DNA of 64,000 nt. Source: an uncultured Lachnoclostridium sp. (lineage in GTDB: Bacteria; Bacillota; Clostridia; Lachnospirales; Lachnospiraceae). Shown piece after piece: positions 16,489-32,528 of the stretch (position 1 is its first letter; every line of letters begins with the position of its first letter). The DNA is taken from the NCBI GenBank assembly GCA_944376715.1, contig CALWDO010000001.1, positions 140,647 to 204,646 on the forward strand. Reading direction: 5' to 3'. The position numbers were made by a program, and so were the translations under genes. The notes under the pieces were generated by a model. That model had not been told where the DNA came from. It saw nothing but the letters and a program-made list of their open reading frames with translations, and did no database searches.

Positions 16489-17691
16489 TTAATCCTGGTT
16501 TTCAATTCTCCAAAGTTCCTGGTCTTCCACATTATTTCTGTATATCTTCCACACTCCATCCTGATAATCAAAATAAGAGTTCATCTCATCTGAATTAAAT
16601 ATAGATATATATGGATAAGTCCACACGGTCACACCGTTTTCCCTGTAATAATATGCCTCGGAAACCATCGCATTTAAATTTTTGATCCCCATCACCAACG
16701 TCAGACCCAGAAAGAATGCCGCCCCTGTTTTTGCGATTTTGTCGCGTTCTGATATCAGCAGCACAACCACCGCGCATTCCAGTACTTTAAAAATCACGCA
16801 GTACCGGCTTGCATAATAAGAGCTGCCGCACATCAGCATGTAAAAACATGTCCCGCATAAATAGGCTTTCAGAAGAAGCGTCGTCCTCTGCTCCGGCTGA
16901 CCGTCCTTTCTCTTTTTCCAGAAATACAAAATCAGTATTGCCGCGGCGCTGACCAGTCTCTCCCCCACGGCAAAAAGACTTACCTCGCCGTCCAGCAGAA
17001 ACTGCTTTACATGATACATAGGCAGAACATTCGTAATCAGCTGCTCCACCGCTCCTATCTGCAGGATCAGTCCTCCCGCGATAGAAAGACCGAACAAAGC
17101 AAGAATTACATACAACGGCAGATAATACACGACGGGAAGCACCAACCATGCGTATCCAACCCGGTGGAACGAAGCCGCGATCAATACACTTACTATATAC
17201 CGCACCCACTTCTTCTCCAGGTAAAACGGGACCGCAATCCCCAGGAATATGCAGATCGCCAGTCCCTGGCGAAGCCCGGACACCAGATAGACCAGATACA
17301 ATACCGGATAAGAGAGAAACAGCCCCGCTGTTCTCAAAGGAACATATTTATTCAAAAACCGATGCAAAAGCAGCATATCCGCCAGCCCCAGGGCAAAAAT
17401 AAATACCCAGAACGGGGCATGGAACAGTTTGAACACCGCCGATATGAGACGCCACCCGATCTCCGGATAAAATCCGCAGATATATCCCTGCGACAGGTCA
17501 ATATAGGCCGGTATGGTTTCATAAAGCCCATGATACGTCACATAATCCGTACCCTGTCCAAAACGCAGGCACAGACAGGCGGCAGCCAGTCCCCAGCAGC
17601 ACCAGTAGATATATTTTCCATACTGCGGCCGAAACCATTCCCATACTGCTCCCGCAGCAAGGATCAAAAATATGATCAAATATAAATTCAT
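16489..17691 (-). CDS. EpsG-family membrane protein, putative polysaccharide polymerase
   Basis: 400 residues with about ten membrane helices. The family signature near the N-terminus is present: LRFGQGTDYVTYHGLY (about 42-57), then YPEIGWRLISAVFKLF (about 75-90) and GLRQGLAICIFLGIA (about 138-152). EpsG proteins join repeat units of exopolysaccharide on the outer membrane face. The C-terminal hydrophilic tail of about 40 residues is extracytoplasmic by prediction. It overlaps the wecB stop by four bases. A second, unrelated polymerase candidate lies at 42794-44047, so two polymers or two linkages may be made. Confidence 0.85.
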   Translation of the reverse strand: MNLYLIIFLILAAGAVWEWFRPQYGKYIYWCCWGLAAACLCLRFGQGTDYVTYHGLYETIPAYIDLSQGYICGFYPEIGWRLISAVFKLFHAPFWVFIFALGLADMLLLHRFLNKYVPLRTAGLFLSYPVLYLVYLVSGLRQGLAICIFLGIAVPFYLEKKWVRYIVSVLIAASFHRVGYAWLVLPVVYYLPLYVILALFGLSIAGGLILQIGAVEQLITNVLPMYHVKQFLLDGEVSLFAVGERLVSAAAILILYFWKKRKDGQPEQRTTLLLKAYLCGTCFYMLMCGSSYYASRYCVIFKVLECAVVVLLISERDKIAKTGAAFFLGLTLVMGIKNLNAMVSEAYYYRENGVTVWTYPYISIFNSDEMNSYFDYQDGVWKIYRNNVEDQELWRIENQD

Positions 17692-18785
17692 GCTTTTCCT
17701 TCCAAGATGTCTGCAATTCTCTTCGAGGCAAATCCATCACCGTATGGATTGCTCGCCGTACTCATTTTTCTGTAAGCTTCCTGATCTTCCAGAAGCATTT
17801 TGAAGTTCTCATAGATCGTCGTCTCGTCTGTGCCCACCAGCTTCAGGGTCCCCGCCGCGATCCCTTCGGGACGCTCGGTGGTATCCCGCATCACCAATAC
17901 CGGCTTACCCAGGGACGGCGCTTCTTCCTGTATCCCGCCGCTGTCTGTCAGGATCAGATAGCTCCTGGCCAGAAAATTATGGAAATCCAGCACGTCCAGC
18001 GGTTCTATGATCCGGATCCGTTCGTCGTCTCCCAGGATGGCCTGGGCCGTCTCGCGCACTGCCGGATTCATATGAATCGGATAGACCGCCTTGATATCCG
18101 GATGTTCGTCACAGACCCGGCGGATCGCCCGGAACATATGCTTCATGGGTTCTCCCAGGTTCTCCCTGCGGTGCGCCGTAATCATAATCAGTCGACTGTC
18201 CCCGGCCCACTCCAGAACCGGATGGGTATAATCCTTCCGTACGGTAGTCTTCAGTGCGTCGATGGCGGTATTGCCCGTCACATAGATAGTCTCCGGCTTC
18301 TTTCCCTCTTTCAGCAGATTCTCCTTCGACAATTCTGTGGGCGCGAAATGATAGGCAGCGATGATCCCCACTGCCTGTCTGTTAAATTCTTCCGGATACG
18401 GAGAATAGATATTATAAGTGCGCAGTCCCGCCTCCACATGCCCTACCGGGATCTGAAGGTAATAGCAGGCCAGAGCCGTCACAAACGTGGTAGAAGTGTC
18501 CCCGTGTACCAGCACCACATCGGGACGCACAGTCTCCAGCACCTCCCTGATCCGGTTCAGAATATTCGTCGTCACATCGAACAAAGTCTGACGGTCTTTC
18601 ATGATAGACAGATCGTAGTCCGGAACCACGGAAAAAGCCTCCAGCACCTGATCCAGCATCTGCCGGTGCTGACCGGTCACACAGACTATCGTCTCTATCT
18701 CTTTTCTTGTCTTCAGTTCATTGACCAGCGGACACATCTTGATCGCCTCCGGCCTGGTCCCGAATACCAGCATTACTTTTTTCAT
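17688..18785 (-). CDS. wecB: UDP-N-acetylglucosamine 2-epimerase (non-hydrolysing)
   Basis: 365 residues, the usual length for WecB/MnaA. Clear signatures are MLVFGTRPEAIKM (5-17), VHGDTSTTF (about 93-101), HVEAGLRTYNIYSPYPEEFNR (about 115-135), ITAHRRENLGEPM (about 201) and LTDSGGIQEEAPSLGKPVL (about 273). It interconverts UDP-GlcNAc and UDP-ManNAc in the cytoplasm. The product can feed the WecC-type enzyme at 3678-4901. A homologue of this fold (WbpI) also epimerises UDP-2,3-diacylamino-glucuronate, so it might instead serve the 3-amino sugar pathway immediately upstream in the same operon. SD GGAAGGA precedes the ATG. Confidence 0.92.
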   Translation of the reverse strand: MKKVMLVFGTRPEAIKMCPLVNELKTRKEIETIVCVTGQHRQMLDQVLEAFSVVPDYDLSIMKDRQTLFDVTTNILNRIREVLETVRPDVVLVHGDTSTTFVTALACYYLQIPVGHVEAGLRTYNIYSPYPEEFNRQAVGIIAAYHFAPTELSKENLLKEGKKPETIYVTGNTAIDALKTTVRKDYTHPVLEWAGDSRLIMITAHRRENLGEPMKHMFRAIRRVCDEHPDIKAVYPIHMNPAVRETAQAILGDDERIRIIEPLDVLDFHNFLARSYLILTDSGGIQEEAPSLGKPVLVMRDTTERPEGIAAGTLKLVGTDETTIYENFKMLLEDQEAYRKMSTASNPYGDGFASKRIADILEGKA

Positions 18786-18786
18786 G

Positions 18787-19875
18787 CTATCCTTCCTTCA
18801 GTTCTTTCCTGATCTGCTCTGCCAGTTTATGATTATTCTTCTCCACATGCACCCTGGAGATAAATCTGTCCACCTGTTCCGTCCACCTGCTGTAATCGCC
18901 CGCAAGCTTCCTGACCGCTGAGACATAATCGTCCGAAGCGATTCCTATGCCGTACTTTTCACAGAGTTCCTTAAGAGGAGGATTCGTGGAAGTAAGCACC
19001 GGTATTCCCTCGTACAGGAACTCAAATATCTTCCCGCTGGCACAGTATTTATTGTTAAGATCCCGCTGATGATAGGCCACAAAACCGATCTGACAGTTCT
19101 CAATAAAATACTTCAGATGATCCTGATCCATGCGGGGCAGTATTTTCACATTCGTAAGTCTCAGTTCCCGAATTGTGGCGCCTGCCAGGATCTCGTCCTC
19201 CTCGTCATTTTCACCGACCAGAAGAAGTTCATATTTTCCGCCCAGCTCCTTCATGGCTTCCAGCAGTTTGCCGGTAGTCCGGCTCATATCGCAGCCTGCA
19301 GTAGAAATAATACGGAATCTTTTCTCCCGGAAAAAATCTCCGTTTTCTTCCTCCATCTGCCTCTGCTTTCCTGCCGCCGTATATTCCAGTCTGCGGATGT
19401 TTTCATAGTTCAAAGGCGTTTTCTTAAGCCCGAACATTTTTACCATGATTTTAGCCCGGAATGGATTGGCGGCGATGACCACGTCCGAATGCCTGGTAAA
19501 TATTTTTTCCATGATGCAGCCGATCTTCCCCGGAATACCGGCAGCGCTCTTCATATCGTACAATTCTCTGCAGTCCTGTACTACATACCTGGCGCCGCAG
19601 ATACCCTTTGCCAGATATCCGGGCAGGATGCCTTTCCGGTTATCGATAAAGATCAGATCCACTTTCCCCAGCCGCCTGGCCTGCAGGCAGCAGAAACGGA
19701 TGAAAGCCGGATATCCATGGTCCGTATAAAGGATATGATTTTTTTCCTGCGGCTCTTCTCCGTCGGAACGGCGGGTGATATAGGTCACCTCGCCCAATTC
19801 TTTGGCGACTTTAATCAGTTCCCGAAGACGCCCATCATATTTCCAATGGTCGTAGGAAATCAACAATATCTTCAT
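18787..19875 (-). CDS. Glycosyltransferase, family 4-like
   Basis: 362 residues, GT-B shape: MKILLISYDHWKYDGR at the start, YVVQDCRELYDMKS (about 97-110) in the acceptor half, then STAGCDMSRTTGKLLEAM and GKIFEFLYEGIPVLTST in the donor half (about 280-296), where the usual E-x7-E pair is reduced. Its ATG overlaps the aminotransferase stop by four bases, and it ends one base before wecB. The tight coupling to sugar-nucleotide genes on both sides suggests that it transfers the sugar they make. Confidence 0.82.
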   Translation of the reverse strand: MKILLISYDHWKYDGRLRELIKVAKELGEVTYITRRSDGEEPQEKNHILYTDHGYPAFIRFCCLQARRLGKVDLIFIDNRKGILPGYLAKGICGARYVVQDCRELYDMKSAAGIPGKIGCIMEKIFTRHSDVVIAANPFRAKIMVKMFGLKKTPLNYENIRRLEYTAAGKQRQMEEENGDFFREKRFRIISTAGCDMSRTTGKLLEAMKELGGKYELLLVGENDEEDEILAGATIRELRLTNVKILPRMDQDHLKYFIENCQIGFVAYHQRDLNNKYCASGKIFEFLYEGIPVLTSTNPPLKELCEKYGIGIASDDYVSAVRKLAGDYSRWTEQVDRFISRVHVEKNNHKLAEQIRKELKEG

Positions 19876-21008
19876 ATATCTGCTCCTGTTTTCTCACGGA
19901 TCAGCCGGATCACCTTCGCCTGGTCCTCCTCTGTCAGATACGGCGACAAAGGAAGCGCCAGCACTCTCTGACATACGTCTGACGTCACCGGGAACGTTTC
20001 TCCATACAGTCTGCATCCCGCGAACGCCGTCTGCTGGTGCATCCCTCTGGGATAATAAATATTCGTAGGCACGCCGTGCTCCTTCAGGTATTCCTGCACT
20101 GCGCCGCGCTCTTCTCCGTCTTTTAAAAGGATACTATACTGTGCCCATCCGGAACCATATCCCTCCGGTATCTTCGGTACTTTCACACAATCTGACAGCC
20201 CTTCCTCATACCGGGCTGCTATACGGTCCGTATCCTTCAGTTCATACTCCCGGAAAGCTTTCAGCTTTACCCGCAGTACCGCTGCCTGGAGTGTGTCCAG
20301 GCGGGAATTCATCCCGATCCGGACATTGTCATACTTGTCCGTTCCCTTTCCATGGATCCGCAGAGAACGGATCAATTCCGCCCATTCGTCATTATCCGTG
20401 AAGACGGCGCCGCCGTCTCCATAGCATCCCAGGGGCTTGGCCGGGAAAAAGGATGTAGTCGCGATATCGCCGAAACTTCCTGCCCGTCTGCCATGGAGAC
20501 TTCCTCCAAATCCCTGAGCCGCGTCTTCCAGAATATACATGCCGTAACGATCCGCAATCTCCCGGATCCGCTCATAATCTGCGGGCAGTCCGAAAAGATC
20601 CACCGCCACGATTACCCGGGGCTTCAATTTCCCTTCTGCCAGTACCGCCTGCACCGCCCTCTCCAGACTGTCAGGATCCATATTAAAAGTGTCTTCCAGA
20701 ATGTCGGTGAACACCGGCGTCGCGCCTTCATACGCCACGGTTTCGGCAGAAGAGAAGAAAGTAAAGTCCGGCACAAAGACCGCGTCTCCCTCTCCGATCC
20801 CCCATGCCATCAGAGCAAGGGTCAGTGCATCTGTACCATTACCGCAGGTAATACAATGTTTCACGCCCACGTACTCCGCCAGCTCTGCTTCCAGCTGTGC
20901 CACCGACTTTCCTCCGATATAGGCAGACTCTTCCAGAACCTGTCCGATCGCGGCATCCATCCCGGACTTCAACACCTGATACTGCTTTTTCAGATCACGA
21001 AATTCCAT
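19872..21008 (-). CDS. DegT/DnrJ/EryC1-family sugar aminotransferase (WbpE-like)
   Basis: 378 residues. The PLP lysine is Lys191 in TTSFFPAKPLGCYGDGG; GNGTDALTLAL (about 56-66), DFTFFSSAETVAYEGATPVF and LEDAAQGFGGS (about 160-170) are further PLP and substrate contacts. The family transfers an amino group from glutamate to a keto sugar nucleotide. With the WbpA-like and WbpB-like genes upstream, the likely substrate is the 3-keto form of UDP-GlcNAc-uronate, giving a 3-amino sugar. It starts one base after the carrier-protein gene, which favours a shared pathway. A 4-keto substrate cannot be excluded. Confidence 0.88.
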   Translation of the reverse strand: MEFRDLKKQYQVLKSGMDAAIGQVLEESAYIGGKSVAQLEAELAEYVGVKHCITCGNGTDALTLALMAWGIGEGDAVFVPDFTFFSSAETVAYEGATPVFTDILEDTFNMDPDSLERAVQAVLAEGKLKPRVIVAVDLFGLPADYERIREIADRYGMYILEDAAQGFGGSLHGRRAGSFGDIATTSFFPAKPLGCYGDGGAVFTDNDEWAELIRSLRIHGKGTDKYDNVRIGMNSRLDTLQAAVLRVKLKAFREYELKDTDRIAARYEEGLSDCVKVPKIPEGYGSGWAQYSILLKDGEERGAVQEYLKEHGVPTNIYYPRGMHQQTAFAGCRLYGETFPVTSDVCQRVLALPLSPYLTEEDQAKVIRLIREKTGADI

Positions 21009-21009
21009 C

Positions 21010-21240
21010 TCACTCTTCCTCTCTGATCCGCTGGATCAAGTTCCAGATCCCCTCCGCGGAATTCAGATTCTCCGGCACGATCTCCTCTGCCGGGATCTCT
21101 ACCCCGAACTGATCTTCGATCTCTGCGATCAGGGTAATCACATCAAAAGACTCCAGCAGTCCGTCGTCGATCAGTTCTTTTTCTGTTTCAAAATCAATCT
21201 CAGGCTTCAGGGCCTGCAGAAGCTCCATTAATTCTTCCAT
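21010..21240 (-). CDS. Acyl/aminoacyl carrier protein
   Basis: A 76-residue acidic protein with the phosphopantetheine site at Ser31 in DDGLLESFDVITLIAEIEDQ. The pattern is closer to stand-alone carriers such as DltC than to fatty-acid ACP (DSLD). It would carry, as a thioester on a phosphopantetheine arm, an acid activated by the ligase at 22492-24003. SD AGGAGA lies about ten bases before the ATG. No thioesterase or condensation domain is nearby; the LpxD-like transferase at 24026-24931 is the obvious acceptor-side partner. Confidence 0.9.
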   Translation of the reverse strand: MEELMELLQALKPEIDFETEKELIDDGLLESFDVITLIAEIEDQFGVEIPAEEIVPENLNSAEGIWNLIQRIREEE

Positions 21241-21302
21241 ATTACAATCTTTCTCCTGACACTTAGTATTGTTTGCTATCAGGACATTTTATCATGCCTG
21301 CA

Positions 21303-22484
21303 TTATGAACGCAAGTCTTCCGTGTTCCATGGCCATGTTTCCAACGCGCCGCGCACCAGTCTGACGCCTTCTTTTTCCCCGTAAAGGTAGATCTTCGGCA
21401 TCCGGCGGCTCAGGAACAGATAGATCCCCTCTGTCACCGAATAGGCCCCGATATTATGGAAAACCAGGTAATCCCCAATCCTTGCGTCGCAAAGCGGCAG
21501 CTTTTTCAGAAGAATATCCGCCACCGTACACAGGGAGCCATAGACCGTCCATTCCTCTTCCTTCTCCTGCTCCAGCGGATGCTGCGGGAAGTAAGAAAGG
21601 ATCGGCGTCTTCATAGCCATATTCTGGCCGTAGTAATTCACATGATTGATCCCGCCGTCCACGATGCACACATTGACCGCGTCATTCCTCTTCTGGTCCA
21701 TGATCTTCGTCATATAATATCCGCAGGACGCGGTCAGATAACGCCCCATCTCAAACGTCACTTCATAAGGCCTCTTCTCCCGGAACAGTTCCATGAACGA
21801 CTCCAGAAGACGCCGGTCTTCCGAAAAATCATCCTTTGTAAAATATGGTACTCCCAGCCCAGGACCGAATTCCAGTTCCCTGGTCACAAAGCCTTCCTCT
21901 TCCTTCAGACGCCGGATCAGTCCTTCTATATATTCCACTTCAGCCGCGATCTTTTTGATTACTTTCTTCTGGGTGCCTGTAAAATACTGAAGTCCGCGGA
22001 TATTTACATATGGATATTTATCCCTTTCACGGATCAGCTGCCGCGCATCCTCTTCACTCATTCCAAACTGGTTGCCGCTGGTCACCCGGAGCAGGATCTC
22101 CACATGCCGTTCCAGTTCTTCCGCGCAGCAGCTCACCAGATAAAACTGACTTCCGGACTCCGCGGTATAATGTACCACGCCCTGCTCCATGGCATAGCGC
22201 ACATCTTCATATTCCTTATTTACACCGGACAGAACAATTTTCTTCATATCCAGCCCGTTCTGTACACAGATATGGAATTCTCCCGGGGAACACACCTCGT
22301 ACCTCTCCACATATGCGTCCAATGTCTTCACCAGAAACGGGTTTGCCTTCATGGCAAAACACAGCTTTGCAGGGCGGATCGTATCCGCGATCCACCTGGC
22401 ACGCTCTGTCAGGATATCTGTATCAAATACATAAGACGGCGTATCCAGCGATACCGCCAGTTCCCGCAGCTTTTCCTCGTTCAT
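21303..22484 (-). CDS. Fold-type III PLP-dependent decarboxylase (LysA-like)
   Basis: 393 residues. The PLP lysine is Lys46 in KLCFAMKANPF; the barrel contains HYTAESGSQ, FGPGLGVPYF (phosphate-binding) and FEMGRYLTASCG. The C-terminal loop YGSLCTVADIL carries the Cys-x3-Asp of amino-acid decarboxylases, which argues against a racemase. The family includes diaminopimelate and related decarboxylases. It lies between the carrier protein and the adenylating ligase, so it most likely prepares or processes the acid loaded on the carrier. A decarboxylation product can be loaded only if it keeps a carboxylate, as from aspartate or glutamate. Substrate unknown. SD GTGAGG precedes the ATG. Confidence 0.85.
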   Translation of the reverse strand: MNEEKLRELAVSLDTPSYVFDTDILTERARWIADTIRPAKLCFAMKANPFLVKTLDAYVERYEVCSPGEFHICVQNGLDMKKIVLSGVNKEYEDVRYAMEQGVVHYTAESGSQFYLVSCCAEELERHVEILLRVTSGNQFGMSEEDARQLIRERDKYPYVNIRGLQYFTGTQKKVIKKIAAEVEYIEGLIRRLKEEEGFVTRELEFGPGLGVPYFTKDDFSEDRRLLESFMELFREKRPYEVTFEMGRYLTASCGYYMTKIMDQKRNDAVNVCIVDGGINHVNYYGQNMAMKTPILSYFPQHPLEQEKEEEWTVYGSLCTVADILLKKLPLCDARIGDYLVFHNIGAYSVTEGIYLFLSRRMPKIYLYGEKEGVRLVRGALETWPWNTEDLRS

Positions 22485-22491
22485 TTAAGCC

Positions 22492-24003
22492 TCACTTTCT
22501 GTACTCCGCCATCAGGGCCTTCCTGTCAATCTTGCCGTTCTTGGTCACCGGCATATCGTCTACCCGGTAAAACACGTTAGGAATCATAAAACGGGGCAGC
22601 TTTTCCGCCAGCCCTTCAATGATCTCTTTCGCTTCCGGCGCGCCCACATAGAATCCTACGATCTTCGTATTTGGCTCGTCATAGATGCAACATGCGCGGG
22701 AAACCCCGTCCAATGCCTGGAACGCCGCCTCGATCTCTCCCAGTTCGATCCGGTGTCCCATATGCTTGATCTGGAAATCTTTCCGCGTCACATAATAAAG
22801 TTCTCCCCGCTCATCATAGCGTCCCAGGTCGCCAGTGCGGTAGACCGGTTCCAGATAACGCCGGTTCAGCGGATTCTGCACAAATACCTCTTCCGTTTTC
22901 TCCCAGTTCCGGAAATATCCCAGAGCAAGCGCCGTACCCGACACGCAGATCTCCCCCAGTTTCCCCGGCTCCGTCAAAAGCCTGTCTTCTTCATCCAAAA
23001 GGAAGACTCTCTCATTCGGGAAAGCCTTCCCAATGGGCAGTACTTCATCTTCCGCGAATTCTCTGTCTACAATATAATAAGTACAGTTGCAGGTAATCTC
23101 GGTAGGTCCGTATAGGTTTACATAGAGCGCGTCCGGCAGATAACTTCTCCAATAGTTCAGATGTTTCACCGGCATCACTTCGCCGCTGAACATGACTCTG
23201 CGGATCGTCTTCGGTACTTTATACCGGAATCCTTTCAACATAGAGATGATGCACAGCGCGGAAACAGCCCATGTAAGATTTGTCACCTTTCTGTCATCCA
23301 GGAAATCCAACAGTTTCTTCGGTACCGAGAAAAATTTCTTTGGAATCACTTCCAATGTAGCCCCTGTCTTCAGCGCAGGGAAGATGTCTTTCACTGAGAC
23401 ATCAAAGTCGAAAGGCGCCTGATTGGCAATCACATCATCCCTGCCGATTCCGAATATTCTCACAAAATGCTCCGTAAAATCGATCACAGACCGGTGGGAT
23501 ACGACCACTCCTTTCGGCGTCCCGGTGGAGCCCGAAGTAAAATTTGTATACAGAGGATCCACATCACAGGAAGCTTCTCTCCTGGACTTCAGCACAGTCT
23601 CACAGATCTCATGCTCCGCCAGATCCTCGGCCAACAGAATCTTTCCGGAAAATCCCAGTTCCCGCACCTTCTGTTCCAGCTTCCTGCCGGTCACCAGAAC
23701 ATCAGCCTCCAGGGTGGACAGGATCGTCAGGATCCGCTCCGCCGGCTGTTCCGGCTCCACCAACGAATAAAAGCAGCCTGCATAGACTGCTCCCATAAAT
23801 ACATTCAGTGTCCACGCCTCTTTTTCCATCAGAACCGGTACCGGCGCATTCTGAGGAAGCACTGCCGCCAGGGCACTGCCGATCCGTTTTCCGTATTCTC
23901 TGACCTGCGCATAGGTGTAGCTCTGCTCCAGGTCCTCGACCGCCGCCTTATCCGGGCACTGCGACGCGCTGCACTCCAGATAATCCAGGATATTCTGAAC
24001 CAT
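22492..24003 (-). CDS. Amino-acid adenylating ligase (NRPS A-domain/DltA-like)
   Basis: 503 residues from the ATG at 24003, which has AGGAGAG before it; a longer frame to 24129 has no support and overlaps the upstream gene. Core adenylation motifs are in order: YTNFTSGSTGTPKGVV (152-167), NLYGPTE (296-302), YRTGDLGRYDERGELYYVTR and the final NGKIDRK with the catalytic Lys at 491. The substrate-pocket stretch FDFDVSV has Asp201 at the position that binds the alpha-amino group in A-domains, pointing to an amino acid rather than a fatty acid. It is a stand-alone enzyme; the partner carrier is the ACP at 21010. The gene starts 22 bases after the LpxD-like acyltransferase gene ends. Confidence 0.9.
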   Translation of the reverse strand: MVQNILDYLECSASQCPDKAAVEDLEQSYTYAQVREYGKRIGSALAAVLPQNAPVPVLMEKEAWTLNVFMGAVYAGCFYSLVEPEQPAERILTILSTLEADVLVTGRKLEQKVRELGFSGKILLAEDLAEHEICETVLKSRREASCDVDPLYTNFTSGSTGTPKGVVVSHRSVIDFTEHFVRIFGIGRDDVIANQAPFDFDVSVKDIFPALKTGATLEVIPKKFFSVPKKLLDFLDDRKVTNLTWAVSALCIISMLKGFRYKVPKTIRRVMFSGEVMPVKHLNYWRSYLPDALYVNLYGPTEITCNCTYYIVDREFAEDEVLPIGKAFPNERVFLLDEEDRLLTEPGKLGEICVSGTALALGYFRNWEKTEEVFVQNPLNRRYLEPVYRTGDLGRYDERGELYYVTRKDFQIKHMGHRIELGEIEAAFQALDGVSRACCIYDEPNTKIVGFYVGAPEAKEIIEGLAEKLPRFMIPNVFYRVDDMPVTKNGKIDRKALMAEYRK

Positions 24004-24025
24004 ATACTCTCTCCTGTCTTTACAT

Positions 24026-24931
24026 TTATTTCTTTTTGATTTCCAGTACCTTCCTGGCCGGATTGCCAAACTGCTTCTCACCCTCCGGCACATCCTTGAT
24101 CGCCACTGCTCCGAGTCCCAGATACGCATGATCCCCGACCTCTATCCGGTTCGTCGTCACCGCCATGGGCGCTACGTACGCCTGATCGCCGATCCGGCAG
24201 TGTCCTGAGATACTGGCCTTCCCGCTGACCAGGGTCTCTTCACCGATCCGGCAGTTATGTCCCACATCTCCCAGAAGGCCAATCATGGACCCTCTTCCAA
24301 GCACGGTCGTCCTGGTGTCCCCTGCCGCCAGCACGGAACCCGCCAGCAAAAGACAGCCATCCTCGATCACCGTTCCTGCCAGATGGGGCAGCGTCCTGCA
24401 GGCTCCGTCTTCTGTCCGGTATATATCCGCGTCTTCCACGCCTATCAGACATTTTTCACGGATCTGCACATCTCTTCCGATCCGCACATGATCTCCGATC
24501 ACGGTCCCTGCTCCGATCCGGGAATTATCTCCTATCACTACATCTCTTCCAATAACGCAGAAAGGTCCAATCTGCACATTTTCTCCTATCTGAAGATCCT
24601 CACTGAAGCAGCATCCGGCAGCCATTCTCTGCCCTACATGAGGCATAAGACATTTCAGCCTCTCCAAAAGCTCTCCATAAAGATTTTTAGGATAAGAACA
24701 TTTCAGTTGTATACTGGATGGATCCAGACTTACTTCCATATCTTTTTTCGTGATGAAAATGCATTCTTTGACCTTTTCTGCATCCTCGGACACATCATTT
24801 TTCACGAATATAATAGAATGGTCTTCCGGCGCTTCCGGATCAGACACGCCATAGATCCTTCCTTCCAGATCCCTTCCTTCGGGAAAACCCTCCAGAAGAT
24901 CCCGGATCGTGATCTCACATATCTTAAACAT
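24026..24931 (-). CDS. LpxD-like left-handed beta-helix acyltransferase
   Basis: 301 residues from the ATG at 24931 (GGGAGAG before it). The first 105 residues form a small domain like the uridine-binding N-terminus of LpxD. From about 109 the sequence is a run of hexapeptide repeats (IGENVQ IGPFCV IGRDVV IGDNSR), ending with a plug helix and GNPARKVLE. GDVGHNCRIG holds His225 in the position of the LpxD catalytic base. LpxD enzymes take an acyl group from a carrier protein to an amino group of a UDP-sugar. With an adenylating ligase and a dedicated carrier in the same operon, I infer N-acylation of the 3-amino sugar nucleotide from that carrier. It overlaps the oxidoreductase gene by eight bases. 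Confidence 0.82.
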   Translation of the reverse strand: MFKICEITIRDLLEGFPEGRDLEGRIYGVSDPEAPEDHSIIFVKNDVSEDAEKVKECIFITKKDMEVSLDPSSIQLKCSYPKNLYGELLERLKCLMPHVGQRMAAGCCFSEDLQIGENVQIGPFCVIGRDVVIGDNSRIGAGTVIGDHVRIGRDVQIREKCLIGVEDADIYRTEDGACRTLPHLAGTVIEDGCLLLAGSVLAAGDTRTTVLGRGSMIGLLGDVGHNCRIGEETLVSGKASISGHCRIGDQAYVAPMAVTTNRIEVGDHAYLGLGAVAIKDVPEGEKQFGNPARKVLEIKKK

Positions 24932-26006
24932 CGAACTCTCCCGCCATATCTGTACTTTCAAAATCTTTCAACGGCAGCTTCACCGGCACGCCTTCTTTCT
25001 GGCTCTTGTAAATGGCCAGCACCAGTTCCAGGGCATTCCTTCCTGCCGCAGCGTCCACATACGGCTTCCGGTCATGTTCTATCGCGTCTATCATATCCGC
25101 ATACAGACTGGTATGACCATTCCCGTAGACATTGCTGGTGGCCTCTTTAAGCCCCTTATTGGCGTCATCCCTGGCTTCTTCGTCCGCAAAGTCCCACACA
25201 TCAATATTGTTCGTGGACTTTCCTCCGATCTTCACAGTTCCCTTCTCTCCGAAGATATACAGAGTCTCTTCCAGATTCTGCGGATATACGTTGGTCGTCC
25301 CCTCTATGGTGGCAATCGCGCCGTTTTTAAACTTCACCACTGCCATGCCCACATCCTCTGCCTCCAGGTAATGGTGGAACTGCTGACGGGTCTGTCCGTA
25401 GACTTCTTCCACTTCATCCCCGAACATCCAGCGGAGGAGATCGATGCCGTGAATACACTGATTCATCAGCGCTCCCCCGTCGGAAGCCCATCTGCCTCTC
25501 CAGGGAGCCTGGTCATAGTAGCTTTTATTCCTGTTCCATCTCACATGAACAGAGCCGTGGGAAAGTTTTCCGAATCTTCCTGCCTCCAGCGCTTTCCTGG
25601 TCTCCTGCACCGCGATGTTGAACCGGTTCTGATGGCAGGCGGAAACTTTCACGCCTTTCTCTTTGGAACGGCGGACAATCTCATCCGCATCCTTCATGCT
25701 CATGGCAATGGGCTTCTCGATGATGCAGTTCACTCCATGATCTATGCAATACAAAGCGATCTGTGCATGCACGCCGCTCTCTGTGGCGATCCCCACCAGC
25801 TCCGGACGTACCTCTTCCACCATTTTTCGGTAGTCTGTATATCTGGCGATAGAAGAGTCCTTCTCCAGTTCATGCTTTGCCAGCAGGTTCTCCATCTGCT
25901 GCGGATCCACGTCGCAGACCGCGGCAAATTCCAATCCGTTGTTCAATACCGCTTTTACATGATTTGTGGCGATGCGTCCGCATCCGATCAACGCGTATTT
26001 CATCAC
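24924..26006 (-). CDS. Gfo/Idh/MocA-family oxidoreductase (WbpB-like)
   Basis: 360 residues. The N-terminal Rossmann fold ALIGCGRIATNHVKAV is at 4-19, IEKPIAMSMKDADEIV near 94 holds the catalytic Lys of the EKP motif, and NQCIHGIDLLRWMFG near 183 holds the His-Asp pair of the substrate domain. WbpB enzymes oxidise C3 of UDP-GlcNAc-uronate for the following aminotransferase. The start overlaps the WbpA-like stop by four bases, and the next gene is the acyltransferase; gene order supports the same pathway. Confidence 0.88.
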   Translation of the reverse strand: MMKYALIGCGRIATNHVKAVLNNGLEFAAVCDVDPQQMENLLAKHELEKDSSIARYTDYRKMVEEVRPELVGIATESGVHAQIALYCIDHGVNCIIEKPIAMSMKDADEIVRRSKEKGVKVSACHQNRFNIAVQETRKALEAGRFGKLSHGSVHVRWNRNKSYYDQAPWRGRWASDGGALMNQCIHGIDLLRWMFGDEVEEVYGQTRQQFHHYLEAEDVGMAVVKFKNGAIATIEGTTNVYPQNLEETLYIFGEKGTVKIGGKSTNNIDVWDFADEEARDDANKGLKEATSNVYGNGHTSLYADMIDAIEHDRKPYVDAAAGRNALELVLAIYKSQKEGVPVKLPLKDFESTDMAGEFDV

Positions 26007-27322
26007 AATACCTCGATATTCTCTCTGTTTTCTATGTTTTTCATGACATTCTTGGTGTCAAAGACGGCTTTTGCATGCCGCTGCACCAGTTCATAATCCA
26101 CGTTGGTATGGGCCGTCGTGATCATGACCAAATCCGCGCTCTCGATCAGATCCTCCGTCAGTTCCGGCTCGCTTACGCGCTCCTGTCCCTTGAATCTGTA
26201 CTGTCTGACCCAGGGATCATAATAGACCACATCCGCTCCTGTCTTTTCCAGTTCCTCGATCACGCGCAGGGCAGGGCTCTCCCGGTAATCATCGATGTCC
26301 TGCTTGTAAGCCACGCCAAGGATCAGCACTCTGGAACCGTTCAGGGATTTCCGGAAACGGTTCAGGATCTTTCCTGCCCGTTCCACACAGTATGCCGGCA
26401 TCTTATCGTTAATCATCATGGAACTTTCGATCATGGAAGTATGGAATCCGTATTCCCTCGCCTTCCAGGACAGATAATAGGGATCCAGCGGAATGCAGTG
26501 GCCGCCCAGTCCCGGTCCCGGATAAAACGGCTGGAAGCCGTAAGGCTTCGTGCTGGCCGCGTCAATGACCTCCCAGATACTGATGCCCATCTCGTTGCAG
26601 AGCATCGCCAGTTCATTGATCAGGCCAATATTGATGTTCCTGTAAGTATTTTCCAGAATCTTCTCCATCTCCGCGATGGCCGGGGAAGACACCTCTTTCA
26701 CATCGCCTTCCAGGACTGCCCGGTACATGGCTGCGATGACTTCCGTGGCGTCTTTGCCCACTCCGCCGATCACTTTCGGAGTATTCTTCGTCTTATAGAT
26801 CAGATTGCCCGGGTCCACACGTTCCGGAGAAAATCCCAAGTAAAAATCTTCGCCGCATTTCAGCCCTGATCCTTCCTCCAGGATCGGCTTCACCAGCTCT
26901 TCTGTAGTACCCGGATAGGTAGTGGACTCCAGCACGACCATGGTGTTCTTCGTCAGATATTTTGCGATATCTCTCGTGGAGTTCCGCACACAGCTCAGAT
27001 CCGGCTCCTGATGGACGTCCAGCGGCGTAGGTACGCAGATGGCGATAAAATCCACATCCTTGATAAAGCTGAAATCCGATGTGGCGGACAACATTCCTTC
27101 TTCCACCAGACGTTTCAAGTCCTTATCTACCACATCTCCAATATAATTGTGCCCCTCGTTGACCAGCTTCACTTTGTGCGGCTGTTCATCGAAACCGATT
27201 GTCCTGAATCCGGCTTTCGCCTTCTCCACCGCCAGCGGCAGACCCACATAGCCCAGGCCGATCACACCGACTACGATCTCCTTTTTCGCGATTTTATCCA
27301 ATAGTAATTGTTTCATGCCCAT
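26003..27322 (-). CDS. UDP-N-acetylglucosamine 6-dehydrogenase (WbpA-like)
   Basis: 439 residues. VGVIGLGYVGLPLAVEKAKAG is the NAD-binding start (18-38), VPTPLDVHQEPDLS near 98, FSPERVDPGN near 164, and the catalytic Cys276 is in GPGLGGHCIPLDPYYLSWKA. YGFQPFYPGPG and the C-terminal KTGADVVYYDPW fit the WbpA/Vi-antigen TviB branch rather than the WecC branch at 3678. It oxidises UDP-GlcNAc to UDP-GlcNAc-uronate. SD AGGAAG is eight bases before the ATG. It is the first step of the cassette that continues through 24924, 24026 and 19872. Confidence 0.88.
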   Translation of the reverse strand: MGMKQLLLDKIAKKEIVVGVIGLGYVGLPLAVEKAKAGFRTIGFDEQPHKVKLVNEGHNYIGDVVDKDLKRLVEEGMLSATSDFSFIKDVDFIAICVPTPLDVHQEPDLSCVRNSTRDIAKYLTKNTMVVLESTTYPGTTEELVKPILEEGSGLKCGEDFYLGFSPERVDPGNLIYKTKNTPKVIGGVGKDATEVIAAMYRAVLEGDVKEVSSPAIAEMEKILENTYRNINIGLINELAMLCNEMGISIWEVIDAASTKPYGFQPFYPGPGLGGHCIPLDPYYLSWKAREYGFHTSMIESSMMINDKMPAYCVERAGKILNRFRKSLNGSRVLILGVAYKQDIDDYRESPALRVIEELEKTGADVVYYDPWVRQYRFKGQERVSEPELTEDLIESADLVMITTAHTNVDYELVQRHAKAVFDTKNVMKNIENRENIEVL

Positions 27323-27325
27323 CTT

Positions 27326-28582
27326 TTATCTTCCTTTCCTGCCCATACAAGTGTTCAGAATCTCCAGATACTGTCCTGCCAGCAAAGAATAATTATATTT
27401 TTCACGGATCTCCCTGCGTCCTCGTTCACCCATTGCCCTGCGCTCTTCCTCCGGCATCTGATATATCCGTAAAAGCGCTTCCGCAAAAGCTTTCGGATCT
27501 CCGCACGGCGTCACTATTCCTCCGCCGGATTCCTCTACCACATTGACAGAGTTGCAGGCGAATACTGTAGGAACGCCGGAATACAGATAATCATTCAGCT
27601 TATTCAGACTCAGGCCCAGATCGTTCAACACCCGGTCGTCCTTCAGCGCCGCGATGCAGGCGCCCGCTTTGGAAAGTACGACCGCCACCTGATCCGGTTC
27701 AATCCGCCCGAAGATTTTAACATGGTCCAGTTTTTCTTTTCGAACCTTCTCTTCCATTTTCGCTCTCAGATGCCCGTCCCCGATAAAAGCAAAGTGGATC
27801 TGATCCTGTCCCATTTTCTTTAAATATGCCGCTGCGTCAATCATATCTAAAGGTCGTTCTGAGTCCACGAAACTCCCGGTGTATACCGCGCACCAGTTCT
27901 CTGTCAGATAATGTTCCATCTCTTCCGGGAGATGCACGTTGCCCGACGCCAGTATCTGGTCAATTCTCTCCGTATGATAACCGTTAGGGATCCAGAATAC
28001 ACGGTCTTTTTTCACATACGGAAACTGTTTCAGATATTGGTATCCAAACTCCATCGTCATCACAATGGCATCCGCCCTCCGATATGCCCGGCGCTCCAGC
28101 GCAGAGAACAAAAGGCATACCGGATGGTATTTGGACCATCCGTAGATCTCTATAAAAGACAGGGGCCAAAAATCCCGAATTTCACAGATAAACGGGATTT
28201 TACACTCTTTGGCAATCCTGCATGCGCTTTCCCAGGCAAACGGGTGCACAGAAGAACCGATTACTGCGTCCGGTTTTCCAAAGCGTTCATAAAATTTCTT
28301 CTCATATTTTCTCATCAGGCGGCTGTAATCCATCATATTCAGGATACGGGCGGCGCCATTGCCATGATAGGCAGGAGAAGTATGCAGCCAGACGTATGTT
28401 ACGCCATCTGCCACCTTTTTTACAACTGCTTCTTTTTCATATAAATATGTCTCTCCCCGATGGCTGTAGCCGGACATAAAAACGACTACTTCCAAATCAT
28501 TTTTCACAAACTCTTTCGCCAGTTCAAAGTGGCGGTCACCTTCCAGCCCGGAATGATGATTTAATATCCACAGCTTTTTCAT
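27326..28582 (-). CDS. Family 4 glycosyltransferase (WbuB-like)
   Basis: 418 residues: LWILNHHSGLEGDRHFELA at the start, VIGSSVHPFAWESA near 107, FICEIRDFWPLSFIEIYG near 130, then VYTGSFVDSERPLDMID and KLNDYLYSGVPTVFACNSV in the donor half. The overall plan matches the GT4 enzyme at 6555-7817, and both follow directly after an initiating sugar transferase gene. It overlaps that gene (28579) by four bases and probably adds the second sugar to its lipid-linked product. Confidence 0.9.
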   Translation of the reverse strand: MKKLWILNHHSGLEGDRHFELAKEFVKNDLEVVVFMSGYSHRGETYLYEKEAVVKKVADGVTYVWLHTSPAYHGNGAARILNMMDYSRLMRKYEKKFYERFGKPDAVIGSSVHPFAWESACRIAKECKIPFICEIRDFWPLSFIEIYGWSKYHPVCLLFSALERRAYRRADAIVMTMEFGYQYLKQFPYVKKDRVFWIPNGYHTERIDQILASGNVHLPEEMEHYLTENWCAVYTGSFVDSERPLDMIDAAAYLKKMGQDQIHFAFIGDGHLRAKMEEKVRKEKLDHVKIFGRIEPDQVAVVLSKAGACIAALKDDRVLNDLGLSLNKLNDYLYSGVPTVFACNSVNVVEESGGGIVTPCGDPKAFAEALLRIYQMPEEERRAMGERGRREIREKYNYSLLAGQYLEILNTCMGRKGR

Positions 28583-29229
28583 CGTGCTACTTGCTCTTTC
28601 TGTTTTCTCGCTTCCCTTTCCTCTGCCAGATTAGACTCTACCACAGCGGTATCCACTGCTATCCCCTCTCTGGCAAATACCTTTGCCACAGTGCATATTA
28701 TAATTTTCACATCACCAAGAAATGTAATATGCTCCGCATACTGCGCGTCTAATTCCAGCCGGTCGTCCCAGGCCAGCATATTTCTTCCATTCACCTGGGC
28801 AAGCCCGGTCAGCCCCGGCATAACGCTGTGCCGTTTCTTCTCCCGTTCTGTATAATACGGCAGATAACTGCAAAGAAGCGGCCTGGGGCCTACAATGCTC
28901 ATATCACCTTTAAAAATATTAAACAGTTCAGGCAGTTCATCCAGGCTTGTCTTTCTCAAAAGACTTCCAAACGGTGTCAGACGTTTTTCATCCGGCAGCA
29001 GATTTCCATCTTTATCACATGTATTCGTCATAGTCCGGAACTTATACATTTTAAAAATCTTTTCATTTTTCCCTGGCCTCTCCTGGCAGAAAATAACCGG
29101 TTTCCCGAGCTTTACACGTACCAGTACCGCTGTCACAGCCAGCACCGGACTCAGTACCACTAACGCTCCTCCTGAAAGAACCACATCACAGGCCCGCTTC
29201 CCATATCTGGCGTATATTCCTGTTTTCAC
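28579..29229 (-). CDS. Initiating sugar phosphotransferase, small PglC-like form
   Basis: 216 residues, the size of the minimal monotopic phosphoglycosyltransferases. One re-entrant hydrophobic helix (VVLSGGALVVLSPVLAVTAV, about 15-34) leads into the catalytic core: IFCQERPGKNEKIFKMYKFR, LDELPELFNIFKGDMS and IVGPRPLL. It transfers a sugar-1-phosphate to undecaprenyl phosphate. PglC takes UDP-diacylated bacillosamine; here the PglF-like and PglE-like genes upstream in the same operon would supply a related 4-amino-4,6-dideoxy sugar, so that substrate is plausible. It is the second initiating enzyme of the window. Confidence 0.9.
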   Translation of the reverse strand: MKTGIYARYGKRACDVVLSGGALVVLSPVLAVTAVLVRVKLGKPVIFCQERPGKNEKIFKMYKFRTMTNTCDKDGNLLPDEKRLTPFGSLLRKTSLDELPELFNIFKGDMSIVGPRPLLCSYLPYYTEREKKRHSVMPGLTGLAQVNGRNMLAWDDRLELDAQYAEHITFLGDVKIIICTVAKVFAREGIAVDTAVVESNLAEEREARKQKEQVAR

Positions 29230-30200
29230 GGCGCAGTCTCCTCTTTGCGCATCATGATTTCATTATATTTCATCATGACCCATCCTTCCTCATATTCCCC
29301 GATCCGAGGAATATTTTCCTCTCCCTTAAGGTTTTGTACAATGTATGCCATATGATTTACCCCGCATTCATACGCATGGGGATAACCGCCGCCGAAACGG
29401 GGATTCACCTCCGATATATAATATTGTCCGTCACAGTCGAAGATATCAATGTCAATCTGCCCGGTGAATCCGCTCTCCTTTACAAATCGGCTGATCAATT
29501 CAAAGAGCTCAGAATCTTTAAAAGAGAGCCCTTTATCAGTCTCCCCGGCTCTCATCACCAGCTTCTTTTTTGTAAAAACAGAGATCGGTTCTTTACTAAT
29601 CAGATCAATATAGCAATCCGCGCCAATCTCCTGTCCCTGCAGATACTCCTGGATCATCAATCCTTCAGAATGGGCAAACAAAAGCTCAACCGTCTCCCGG
29701 TCATATGCCTTTGAAATAGCAATGCTGGCGCTTCCACGCACCGGTTTCACAAACACCGGATAGGTAATAAATCCCTGATCCACATCTTTAAAAAAAGCAT
29801 TCTGGTCTACATAACTCCTTGCACAGCGATAACCATGAGAAGACAGCCATTGATACATCTGCCACTTATCCAATGTTCTCTCGCACAATTCATAAGAAGA
29901 CCCTATCACTCTGACTCCCAGCTCCCTGAACCGTTCCTCATTTTGGGCCAGCAAAGACAGCTCCGGATCAATCAGAGAAAAAACCCCGTTAATCTTCTCT
30001 TTCCGGCAAATATCCAGAATTACATCCAGATATCCGGGCTCCGTCATTCGGGGGACAATATAATACTTATCCGCCTCATAAAGAGCAGGCGCATTTGGGC
30101 TCATGTCTGTCGCAATCACCATGCCCTCACCGGCAAGTTCTCTTTTCATATACTGTATGATTTTGTTCCGGGTTCCACAACTGAGAATCAATACATTCAT
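29226..30200 (-). CDS. ATP-grasp ligase (carbamoyl-phosphate-synthase-like)
   Basis: 324 residues from the ATG at 30200, which overlaps the preceding stop as ATGA; a longer frame to 30236 lies inside the upstream gene. The N-terminal pre-ATP domain is VLILSCGTRNKIIQYM; FVKPVRGSASIAISKA (about 142-157) is the ATP lysine and glycine loop, IQEYLQGQEIGADCYI follows, and QIDIDIFDCDGQYYISEVNPRFGGG is the metal site (DIF, E-x-NPR). ATP-grasp ligases of this type join a carboxylate to an amine through an acyl phosphate. Beside a 4-amino sugar pathway, amide formation between an amino acid and the sugar amine is a reasonable inference. Confidence 0.82.
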   Translation of the reverse strand: MNVLILSCGTRNKIIQYMKRELAGEGMVIATDMSPNAPALYEADKYYIVPRMTEPGYLDVILDICRKEKINGVFSLIDPELSLLAQNEERFRELGVRVIGSSYELCERTLDKWQMYQWLSSHGYRCARSYVDQNAFFKDVDQGFITYPVFVKPVRGSASIAISKAYDRETVELLFAHSEGLMIQEYLQGQEIGADCYIDLISKEPISVFTKKKLVMRAGETDKGLSFKDSELFELISRFVKESGFTGQIDIDIFDCDGQYYISEVNPRFGGGYPHAYECGVNHMAYIVQNLKGEENIPRIGEYEEGWVMMKYNEIMMRKEETAP

Positions 30201-31363
30201 TCTTCCGTTCCCTGCACATATTCTTTTACGCCCCATCTGCGGCGTACACAGGTAATCCTTCCTTTATCCTCCAGATATACATCCGGGTAGTAACTGATAA
30301 ACAGCGGAGACAGGCACATAGTATATGCCCCCACTTTTTCATATACGATCCGATCGCCGCACTGCAGTGCCGGCGCATCTGTCAACTGAAACAATCGATC
30401 GTCTTCCATACAGGTAAATCCTGATATAATCTGCGTCTTTACAATCCCTTCTCCTGACCTCATCGGCTCAACGTGATAAAAATAACTTTTTTTCCTCATC
30501 AAAGGATCCACATGGATCCTGCTGCCGTCTGTGATAACAAAACGATTTCTGTTAGTTTCCTTTACATCTGTCACCGTCGTTACATATTCAATCGGAGGGC
30601 AGATCAGAGAAGTCCCCGGCTCTACAATCAGACAGGTCCGTTTAGGATCAAAGCTTTTTCTCAATATCTCCGACATTACATTCAGATAATCGTCGTATTG
30701 AGGTTTATCTGGCAGTCCGCCAAAGTATCCTCCGCCTACATCTACATAATCCGGCTCTAATTTATACTCGTCGCATATTCTACACGCCGTCTCTGCTATC
30801 GCGCGATATATATTCAGGCTTCTGGTTTTAGAGCTACAATGCAGATGAAGTCCTGCAAACCTGATTCCAGGAAGCTTTTCCAACTCACCTACGACACGGC
30901 GAAGGCTCCCATTTTCATAGTTGAATCCAAAACGTCCGCCCTCTTCTCCACCGGATGCCTCTCCCGGACACATTGACTCCAGGTCGAAATTCACTCTCAG
31001 TCCCACATTTATGGTCTCTTCGGAATCCGCAGCCTCTTTCAACCATTCTATTTCCCTCTCTGCATCCAGATTGACAATATGTCCGGCTTTACATGCCCTT
31101 AAAAAACTTTCTTTCCCTTTTACCGGGCCATTATATATGATGTGTCTAAACCCCATATATTCCGCGAGCTCGTATTCGTCTTCCGACACAACTTCCGCAT
31201 AACAGCCATGTGCTTTCATAAAGGAAAGTACCCACGGAAGCGAATTGGTCTTAAACGAATAACCGACCACAGAATTGGGCCAATGGCGTTTCAATGCCAT
31301 ATGCAGTCTGTCCATCTCTTCTTCAAGAATGCTTTGATGAATTAAATAATAAGGTGTTTTCAT
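30197..31363 (-). CDS. Fold-type III PLP-dependent decarboxylase (second, LysA-like)
   Basis: 388 residues. PLP lysine Lys38 is in VVGYSFKTNSLPW; GLHLHCSSKTRSLNIY near 173, YVDVGGGYFGGLP near 206 and IVEPGTSLICPP near 246 are the usual barrel elements, and SGFTCMEDDRL near 316 is the Cys-x3-Asp loop of decarboxylases. It shares the fold but little sequence with the enzyme at 21303-22484. Both stand next to an acid-activating enzyme, here the ATP-grasp ligase with which it overlaps by four bases. Substrate unknown. Confidence 0.83.
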   Translation of the reverse strand: MKTPYYLIHQSILEEEMDRLHMALKRHWPNSVVGYSFKTNSLPWVLSFMKAHGCYAEVVSEDEYELAEYMGFRHIIYNGPVKGKESFLRACKAGHIVNLDAEREIEWLKEAADSEETINVGLRVNFDLESMCPGEASGGEEGGRFGFNYENGSLRRVVGELEKLPGIRFAGLHLHCSSKTRSLNIYRAIAETACRICDEYKLEPDYVDVGGGYFGGLPDKPQYDDYLNVMSEILRKSFDPKRTCLIVEPGTSLICPPIEYVTTVTDVKETNRNRFVITDGSRIHVDPLMRKKSYFYHVEPMRSGEGIVKTQIISGFTCMEDDRLFQLTDAPALQCGDRIVYEKVGAYTMCLSPLFISYYPDVYLEDKGRITCVRRRWGVKEYVQGTEE

Positions 31364-31376
31364 ATATCCTCGTTTT

Positions 31377-32510
31377 CTATGCCCACAATCTGCGGATGAT
31401 CCCGCAGACTCTCTCCAGATCTTCCTCCGTCATCTTGGTATCACTTGGCAGACATACTCCCCGGTTGAACAGTGTCTCCGCCACGCCGCCATGATCAATA
31501 TAATCGCATCCCGCAAATACCGGCTGAAGATGCATGGGTTTCCACACCGGACGGCTCTCCACGTCTCCCTGCTCCAGCGCCACCATCACATCCAAAGGTT
31601 TCACCGGGCAGTCCTCCGCGATCTGTATAACAGAAAGCCAGCAGTTAGCCCGCTCGTTTTCATGCACAGGCATAAAGGAAATGCCTTCCAGATCTCCCAG
31701 ATATTCCTGATAATACGCGAATATCTTCCGCTTCTGTTCGACCCTCTGCTCCAGCACCTTCATCTGTCCGCGGCCGATTCCGGCCAGGATATTGCTCATA
31801 CGATAATTATAACCGATTTCTTTATGTTCATAATGGCGCGCCGGCTCCCTGGCCTGAGTCGCCCAGAAACGCACCTTCGCGATCCGTTCTTTCGCTTTTT
31901 CCTCCTCCAGATTGCAGACCAGCATACCTCCTCCGGAAGTGGTGATGATCTTGTTCCCATTAAAAGAAAAAGCCCCGTAATCTCCAAAAGTTCCCGTATA
32001 CTTCCCATGATAAATGGTGCCAAGGCTCTCCGCCGCGTCCTCGATCACTGGCACGCCGTATCTCCCACAGATCTCCATGATCCGTTCCATATTGGCCGGA
32101 TTGCCGTACAGATGCACCGGCATAACCGCCTTCGCATTCGGATACTTTTTCAGCGCATCTTCCAATGCCTCCGGAGACATGTCCCAGGTCTCATAATCGC
32201 TGTCCACAAATACAGGCACCGCTTTTTCATACGCCACCGGATTCACCGTGGCTGAAAACGTCAGATCCTGGCAGATCACCACATCCCCCTGCCGCACCCC
32301 TGCCGCTTTTAGCGCCAGATGGATCGCGGAGGTGCCGGAAGAAAGAGCCGCCGCATCAGAGGCTCCCACGTAAGAAGCCAGCTCCTTCTCAAATTCGTTC
32401 ACATTTTTCCCAAGAGGAGCGATCCAGTTGGTATCAAACGCTTCTTTGATGTACTCCTGTTCATAGCCTTCTGCGCTCATGTGCGGAGAAGCCAGATAAA
32501 TATGTGCCAT
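31377..32510 (-). CDS. DegT-family sugar aminotransferase (PglE-like)
   Basis: 377 residues. PLP lysine Lys187 is in GAFSFNGNKIITTSGGGML; the N-terminus YLASPHMSAEGYEQEYIKEAFDTNWIAPLG and ALSSGTSAIHLAL are typical of C4 aminotransferases that act on UDP-4-keto-6-deoxy-GlcNAc (PglE/LegC branch). It follows the PglF-like dehydratase gene by 18 bases, so the pair should give UDP-4-amino-4,6-dideoxy-N-acetylglucosamine. The sugar would then go to the ATP-grasp and PglC-like enzymes downstream. Confidence 0.9.
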   Translation of the reverse strand: MAHIYLASPHMSAEGYEQEYIKEAFDTNWIAPLGKNVNEFEKELASYVGASDAAALSSGTSAIHLALKAAGVRQGDVVICQDLTFSATVNPVAYEKAVPVFVDSDYETWDMSPEALEDALKKYPNAKAVMPVHLYGNPANMERIMEICGRYGVPVIEDAAESLGTIYHGKYTGTFGDYGAFSFNGNKIITTSGGGMLVCNLEEEKAKERIAKVRFWATQAREPARHYEHKEIGYNYRMSNILAGIGRGQMKVLEQRVEQKRKIFAYYQEYLGDLEGISFMPVHENERANCWLSVIQIAEDCPVKPLDVMVALEQGDVESRPVWKPMHLQPVFAGCDYIDHGGVAETLFNRGVCLPSDTKMTEEDLERVCGIIRRLWA

Positions 32511-32528
32511 ATCTATGCCTCTTTTCCA

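Follow-up and report, generated by a model that had tools for sequence, protein, structure and literature searches.

A conserved Lachnoclostridium gene block with a candidate carrier-dependent route for omega-aminoacylation of a 3-amino nucleotide sugar

What is attached to the 3-amine of a nucleotide sugar when the genes for its synthesis include no acetyltransferase WbpD and hold instead a ligase, a carrier protein, a decarboxylase and an LpxD-like transferase? This question is raised by a nine-gene block at 17688-27322 of a 64,000-nucleotide stretch (hereafter the window; positions 140,647 to 204,646 of contig CALWDO010000001.1, assembly GCA_944376715.1) from an uncultured Lachnoclostridium sp. 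The initial annotation had proposed that WbpD is replaced by the LpxD-like enzyme, fed by a dedicated ligase and carrier, so that the amine receives an unusual acyl or aminoacyl group. As a whole this interpretation is partly supported by our analysis, and its core idea is strengthened. We consider it rather probable that glutamate or aspartate is loaded on the carrier and decarboxylated there, and that the omega-aminoacyl group is moved by the LpxD-like enzyme, instead of acetate, to the 3-amine of a UDP-sugar.

Gene content and order, the conservation of the block and that of single residues could be observed directly. Profile and Pfam scans confirmed nine open reading frames (ORFs), all on the minus strand, with the coordinates and families given initially, and with corrected starts the intergenic gaps range from -8 to +62 bases; the description of nine tightly packed genes was accurate. 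The LpxD-like profile matches all 17 genomes of the genus. Searched for across genomes, the set of ligase, carrier, decarboxylase and LpxD-like genes was found in all of them as far as the contigs reach, and to the same extent the order wbpB, LpxD-like gene, ligase, decarboxylase, carrier, degT, glycosyltransferase and epimerase is kept on one strand (L178 ends after the decarboxylase gene and L185 after the glycosyltransferase gene). In the 16 genomes besides that of the window, wbpB and the LpxD-like, ligase and decarboxylase genes are ordered on one strand, with the carrier gene next in order in 15; altogether the carrier was seen in 16 of the 17 blocks, the L178 contig stopping before it. 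In L180-L183 and L185 a gene for a protein of about 515 amino acids separates the decarboxylase gene from the carrier gene, as the spacing alone also suggests for L184; the L181 copy is a Glucos_trans_II protein. The dedicated ligase and carrier claimed beside the decarboxylase are thus adjacent in the block and kept across the genus.

The ligase (22492-24003; TIGR01733 326 bits, TIGR01734 298 bits) is a stand-alone, DltA-like adenylating enzyme. Its ORF extends to 24129, and the true start is very probably the internal Met43 at 24003, giving 503 amino acids, because the DltA match covers the protein only from residue 43 onward and the longer form would run into the upstream gene; the residue number Asp201 of the initial annotation agrees with this form. 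At the PheA positions the pocket reads DVKTMSLCN (D201, V202, K205, T244, M271, S273, L297, C305, N306), and a DltA pocket for D-alanine (DLMVLCTVA) was rejected. The pocket lysine fits an acidic substrate, with a code that does not separate glutamate from aspartate, nor the carboxylate that is activated. For comparison we used 60 neighbourhoods of the ligase-decarboxylase-carrier trio, taken from 87 listed matches in the family and consisting mostly of the higher-scoring ones, not a random sample. DVKxxS[LV]CN (Lys at PheA position 239, Asn at 331) occurs in 53 of 59 trio ligases; the others carry IARGCSQAS (L059, L088 and L095, with the order ligase-carrier-decarboxylase) or DAKCAVLG[IV] (L037 and L041, decarboxylase-ligase-carrier), or are cut (L078). 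A set of 30 loci gathered with the DltA profile, several of which overlap the trio set, was also read; the window is among its 12 DVK..CN loci. A decarboxylase lies within the fetched stretch at 11 of these 12 (L140, the exception, lies where its contig stops) vs. none of the 18 loci with other codes, four of which have canonical DltA codes and five of which lie in frames above 1,400 amino acids resembling nonribosomal peptide synthetases (NRPS), where no decarboxylase is expected and the flanks fetched span only 1.5 kb.

The fold-III pyridoxal phosphate (PLP) decarboxylase (21303-22484) has BtrK as its nearest solved structure in the PDB search (112 bits, E 3e-31). The LCT motif is common to both proteins, and the window motif reads Cys319-Thr320-x-x-Asp323, with Lys46 as the PLP lysine; Lys46, Cys319 and Asp323 are invariant among 56 aligned relatives and Thr320 is found in 55. 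At E <=1e-50, 86 of the 397 family genomes have a match to the decarboxylase vs. 4 of 398 across the phylum, its own genome included. The carrier (21010-21240; 76 amino acids; PF00550) is DltC-like, with an E of 2.5e-8 for NF003464 that is below the cut-off, and its phosphopantetheine site Ser31, present as claimed, is invariant in 56 of 56 related carriers. According to passages of PMC7857480, BtrK converts Glu-S-BtrI to the gamma-aminobutyric acid (GABA) form, GABA-S-BtrI. For vicenistatin, passages of PMC11284099 describe that VinN puts 3-methylaspartate on VinL and that VinO decarboxylates afterwards, and for fluvirucin that FlvN takes aspartate. By analogy with BtrK and VinO, the window decarboxylase most likely acts on a carrier-bound amino acid. 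The earlier suggestion was that it could make a beta- or gamma-amino acid; formation on the carrier is likelier than formation as a free compound.

The sugar itself would come from a Wbp-like route, the steps of which lead to UDP-GlcNAc3NAcA/ManNAc3NAcA through WbpA, WbpB, WbpE, WbpD and WbpI (passages of PMC10622841). The block encodes a WbpA-like nucleotide-sugar 6-dehydrogenase (26003-27322; TIGR03026 438 bits; best PDB match 4r16, 250 bits). The WbpB-like 3-dehydrogenase of Gfo/Idh/MocA type (24924-26006; PF02894/PF01408) matches PDB 3q2k and 3q2i, which we take to be WlbA, with 254 and 232 bits, and the WbpE-like DegT protein (19872-21008; PF01041) matches WbpE with 297 bits and another DegT entry, 4qgr, with a higher score of 395 bits. 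These PDB matches identify both a C3 dehydrogenase and a C3 aminotransferase of WbpB/WbpE type in the block and so support the claimed route to a 3-amino sugar. No WbpD was found in the block, and the genome (2.9 Mb, 79 contigs, 88 percent complete) gave only weak hexapeptide matches to it (best E 4e-14, 33 percent). The WbpA-like protein is 75-79 percent identical to those of L103, L124, L125 and L128, which lie near WbpB/WbpE-type genes and, in L103 and L124, also near WbpD. In L124 the relatives of the window WbpA and WbpB (79 and 81 percent) share the locus with wbpD, which directly follows wbpB, the position held in the window by the LpxD-like gene and the trio. In L103, WbpD accompanies a 76 percent WbpA relative, the WbpB there being no closer than 23 percent; in L126 it accompanies a WbpB relative of 59 percent. 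As for the proposed replacement, WbpD is missing from the block and the LpxD-like gene is kept.

The LpxD-like gene (24026-24931) encodes a putative hexapeptide N-acyltransferase of 301 amino acids; its ATG at 24931 is a more likely start than the TTG at 24961, because the longest ORF in relative L100 opens at the equivalent Met. The protein resembles LpxD, as claimed, but scores below both curated cut-offs (119 vs. 242.5 bits; PRK00892 127 vs. 207 bits, over residues 35-174 of the 311-aa form), and a true LpxD equivalog was rejected on these scores. The N-terminal LpxD domain PF04613 was not found in it up to E 1 and is weak in 5 of the 21 aligned sequences (best E 0.016), and almost nothing is present beyond the hexapeptide repeats. 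His225 is invariant in all 21. At E 1e-30 the protein was found in 4 of 398 genomes across the phylum, its own included, and the profile gave weaker matches in 11 further genomes of the family. In none of these 11 neighbourhoods was the decarboxylase the best blastp match at E 1e-3, and two of the loci, L124 and L126, also carry WbpD. Genes near the LpxD-like gene of L103 encode a carrier, KAS III, an acyltransferase and a phosphopantetheinyl transferase; such neighbours support the view that enzymes of this group draw on carrier-bound donors. A small carrier-like gene is found near the LpxD-like gene in L123 and L127; in both, it is adjoined by a gene for a protein that looks glyoxalase-fold-like from its sequence (L123:11487-12121, L127:10572-11218).

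Judged from these homologies, the route would start from UDP-GlcNAc, which the WbpA-like enzyme, in those genus members that have it, would oxidise at C6; C3 would next be oxidised (WbpB-like enzyme) and aminated (WbpE-like enzyme). Alongside, the ligase would activate a dicarboxylic amino acid, with glutamate the likeliest choice and aspartate the next, by adenylation of its side-chain carboxylate and load it on the holo-carrier, where the BtrK-like enzyme would strip the alpha-carboxylate to give GABA-S-carrier or beta-alanyl-S-carrier. The LpxD-like transferase would hand the aminoacyl group to the 3-amine in place of WbpD, and the glycosyltransferase would insert the sugar into the surface polysaccharide made by the enclosing gene cluster. 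The sugar would thereby probably gain a free amine with a positive charge, beside a carboxylate where WbpA is present. Four elements of this scheme we infer: which amino acid is used, that it is decarboxylated while carrier-bound, that the loaded carrier serves the LpxD-like enzyme, and that the group goes to the 3-amine.

Several observations weigh against the scheme. LpxA and LpxD hold the acyl carrier protein through an extra C-terminal region, and the LpxD-like enzyme has no recognisable region of this kind; its AlphaFold2 model, which is poor (mean pLDDT 73.7, pTM 0.67), had no PDB match below E 0.001, and LpxD entries match it only from E 0.16 with a TM of about 0.25. The pocket lysine at 239 also occurs in the DAK-type ligases of L138, L156 and L158, which have no decarboxylase, and in NRPS it is known from pockets that activate glutamate at the alpha position, leaving no free alpha-carboxylate. 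The gene wbpA is present in 8 of the 17 genus blocks (the window and seven others, L178 with a cut piece only) and missing from 8, with the L174 contig cut; in the genomes of the 8 without it (80-98 percent complete) the only dehydrogenase match was at 32-34 percent. The WbpA step would thus apply to the window but not to the whole genus, and because wbpA varies, what all members would make in common is an N-acylated 3-amino sugar, C6 oxidation being optional. Deacetylase-like genes at other LpxD-like loci and the usual partners of the trio weigh in the same direction, each favouring an alternative given below.

Elsewhere the trio goes with membrane O-acyltransferases. By ORF-level blastp its three genes are all present in 58 of the 60 stretches, counting L087 with its carrier match on the opposite strand (L058 and L069, both at contig ends, lack one), and by tblastn with a 3 kb limit they are together in 54. 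Of the 60, 51 have an MBOAT gene no more than 5 kb away on the same strand, and 48 have an SGNH-type protein in addition; two MBOATs tested against DltB TIGR04091 gave 154 and 159 bits, below the cut-off of 375, and the single SGNH-type protein tested had a Pfam match below the cut-off. A Tyr stands among the last 12 residues in all 52 MBOAT ORFs of the trio loci, and the C-terminus of 51 reads Y-x-x-[FY], which in our judgement resembles the acyl-shuttle hexapeptide of MBOAT/SGNH and DltX systems (passages of PMC12148441). Given these neighbours and the C-terminal motif, the trio seems usually to serve as a decarboxylating relative of D-alanylation. A trio specific to the sugar pathway was rejected: the gene set is kept together in the genus, as had been expected, but the trio alone is common beyond this pathway, mostly in Dlt-like operons. 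With canonical DltA codes in 4 of the 30 DltA-profile loci, decarboxylase-bearing Dlt-like operons may be the common Dlt type of the family. The carrier of the window could likewise serve a membrane acyltransferase, the LpxD-like enzyme being an acetyl-CoA-dependent substitute for WbpD that takes nothing from the trio. Acetyl-CoA is a frequent donor for hexapeptide enzymes of such a shape, and a different contig of the genome carries one MBOAT/SGNH pair, the MBOAT of which ends in a motif similar to Y-x-x-[FY]. We regard this as unlikely: the LpxD-like gene and the trio occur together in 17 of 17 genus genomes, no MBOAT/SGNH partner is present in the block and no MBOAT among 30 Pfam-scanned window proteins (some window ORFs were left unscanned), and among the best 8 matches listed the MBOAT of this genome is nearest to a separate L041 MBOAT (51 percent) and only 31-36 percent identical to the others. 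In the ligase tree the window clade branches among the trio ligases; the larger clade that holds it has 17 members (support 0.95), MBOAT-linked ones included. Six ligases form the direct sisters of the window clade (support 0.62), and five of these have no MBOAT nearby. More tentatively, and as an idea that falls a little short of probable, Lachnospiraceae-type bacteria may share an omega-aminoacyl-carrier donor, formed by loading a dicarboxylic amino acid and decarboxylating it on the carrier, and mostly used for Dlt-like MBOAT/SGNH export onto surface polymers and in one genus for cytosolic N-aminoacylation of a UDP-3-amino sugar by the LpxD-like enzyme.

The order of ligation and decarboxylation could also be reversed, with the decarboxylase first making a free omega-amino acid (or a diamine) that the ligase then loads. 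Most characterised fold-III decarboxylases use free amino acids, and apart from BtrK the PDB match list of the decarboxylase consists mostly of DapDC and ODC entries. Yet its top solved relative works on Glu-S-BtrI, and where both have the LCT motif the second fold-III protein of the cluster reads CMEDD. The whole DVK..CN pocket moreover co-occurs with the decarboxylase, which is easier to explain if the amino acid meets the ligase before it is decarboxylated, and free-product formation is in our view very unlikely. We think it just as improbable that the LpxD-like enzyme acylates the 2-amine in the manner of LpxC/LpxD, with the 3-amine free or modified elsewhere. What speaks for it is a gene for a PIG-L-like or unassigned deacetylase-like protein near 9 of the 11 other LpxD-like loci (Pfam confirmed PIG-L in L123 and gave no match for the L124 protein), which suggests 2-N reacylation by most of these relatives. 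The window genome gave no match to either kind at E 1e-5, with one query each and no positive control, so a free amine would most simply come from the aminotransferase; and L128, which resembles the window in having WbpA, WbpB, LpxD-like and DegT genes, has neither WbpD nor a deacetylase in its fetched stretch.

Transfer to the 3-amine after decarboxylation on the carrier combines features of several known systems. Butirosin BtrI/BtrJ/BtrK likewise comprises carrier, ligase and fold-III decarboxylase, but BtrJ is an ATP-grasp ligase and the acceptor an aminoglycoside, vs. a DltA-like adenylating enzyme and, by inference, a nucleotide sugar in the window. VinN/VinL/VinO shares a stand-alone adenylating ligase, a stand-alone carrier and a PLP decarboxylase acting after loading; there and in fluvirucin synthesis a polyketide synthase is supplied. 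The window pocket differs from that of VinN by K239, C330 and N331. With the Wbp pathway the window has homologues of WbpA, WbpB and WbpE in common, whereas WbpD gives way to the LpxD-like enzyme and carrier, and the epimerase is not of WbpI type. The Dlt system resembles the window in its ligase and carrier, and the family trio elsewhere also in its DltB-like MBOAT and SGNH-type protein; it differs in the added decarboxylase, in the pocket (DVKxxS[LV]CN vs. DLMVLCTVA) and in the MBOAT, which the window block lacks. Against the exosortase-A-associated TIGR03098 and TIGR03099, the window ligase (195 bits) and decarboxylase (159 bits) stay far below the cut-offs of 592 and 478. We found no description of this gene set or of omega-aminoacylated 3-amino sugars in the open-licence literature, mostly screened by listing. 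The statement that no such pathway is described therefore holds, within that literature, for the whole combination but not for decarboxylation on a carrier, for which BtrI/BtrK and VinL/VinN/VinO are precedents.

If true, the scheme would tie carrier chemistry of the antibiotic type, as in butirosin and vicenistatin, to the glycans on the surface of common gut bacteria. It would also predict cationic sugars and polymers bearing GABA or beta-alanine that standard annotation would label as D-alanylation and that would affect surface charge and host recognition, and DVKxxS[LV]CN with an adjacent decarboxylase could serve as a search signature. The family-wide reading, if true, would add a nucleotide-sugar omega-aminoacyltransferase that depends on a carrier protein and, as a counterpart of D-alanylation, a system that includes decarboxylation.

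The remaining two genes of the block encode a putative glycosyltransferase (18787-19875), with a weak PF13692 match (E 3e-4) below the Pfam cut-off, and a non-hydrolysing UDP-GlcNAc 2-epimerase (17688-18785; TIGR00236 526 bits). The latter belongs to the epimerase family initially named, but to its WecB/MnaA type; a WbpI-type identity was rejected on 537 bits to the UDP-GlcNAc 2-epimerase 8ahe vs. 145 bits to the UDP-diacetamido-glucuronate epimerase 8sxv. The window contains no tRNA and no Rfam match at the gathering score. At 28579-32510 it encodes a phosphoglycosyltransferase, an ATP-grasp protein (NF009406, 513 bits), the second fold-III PLP protein with CMEDD and a LegC/PseC-type DegT protein, an arrangement that can be likened to a split PglB2, and a UDP-GlcNAc 4,6-dehydratase-like gene adjoins at 32529-34388. 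Together, 28579-34388 could be a possible 4-amino-sugar route with an ATP-grasp amide step; the ATP-grasp and second PLP genes are present in some relatives and missing in others. At 3678-9168 a second nucleotide-sugar dehydrogenase, a heparinase II/III-like protein, a GT4 protein and a second phosphoglycosyltransferase are encoded, possibly forming a second glycan module.

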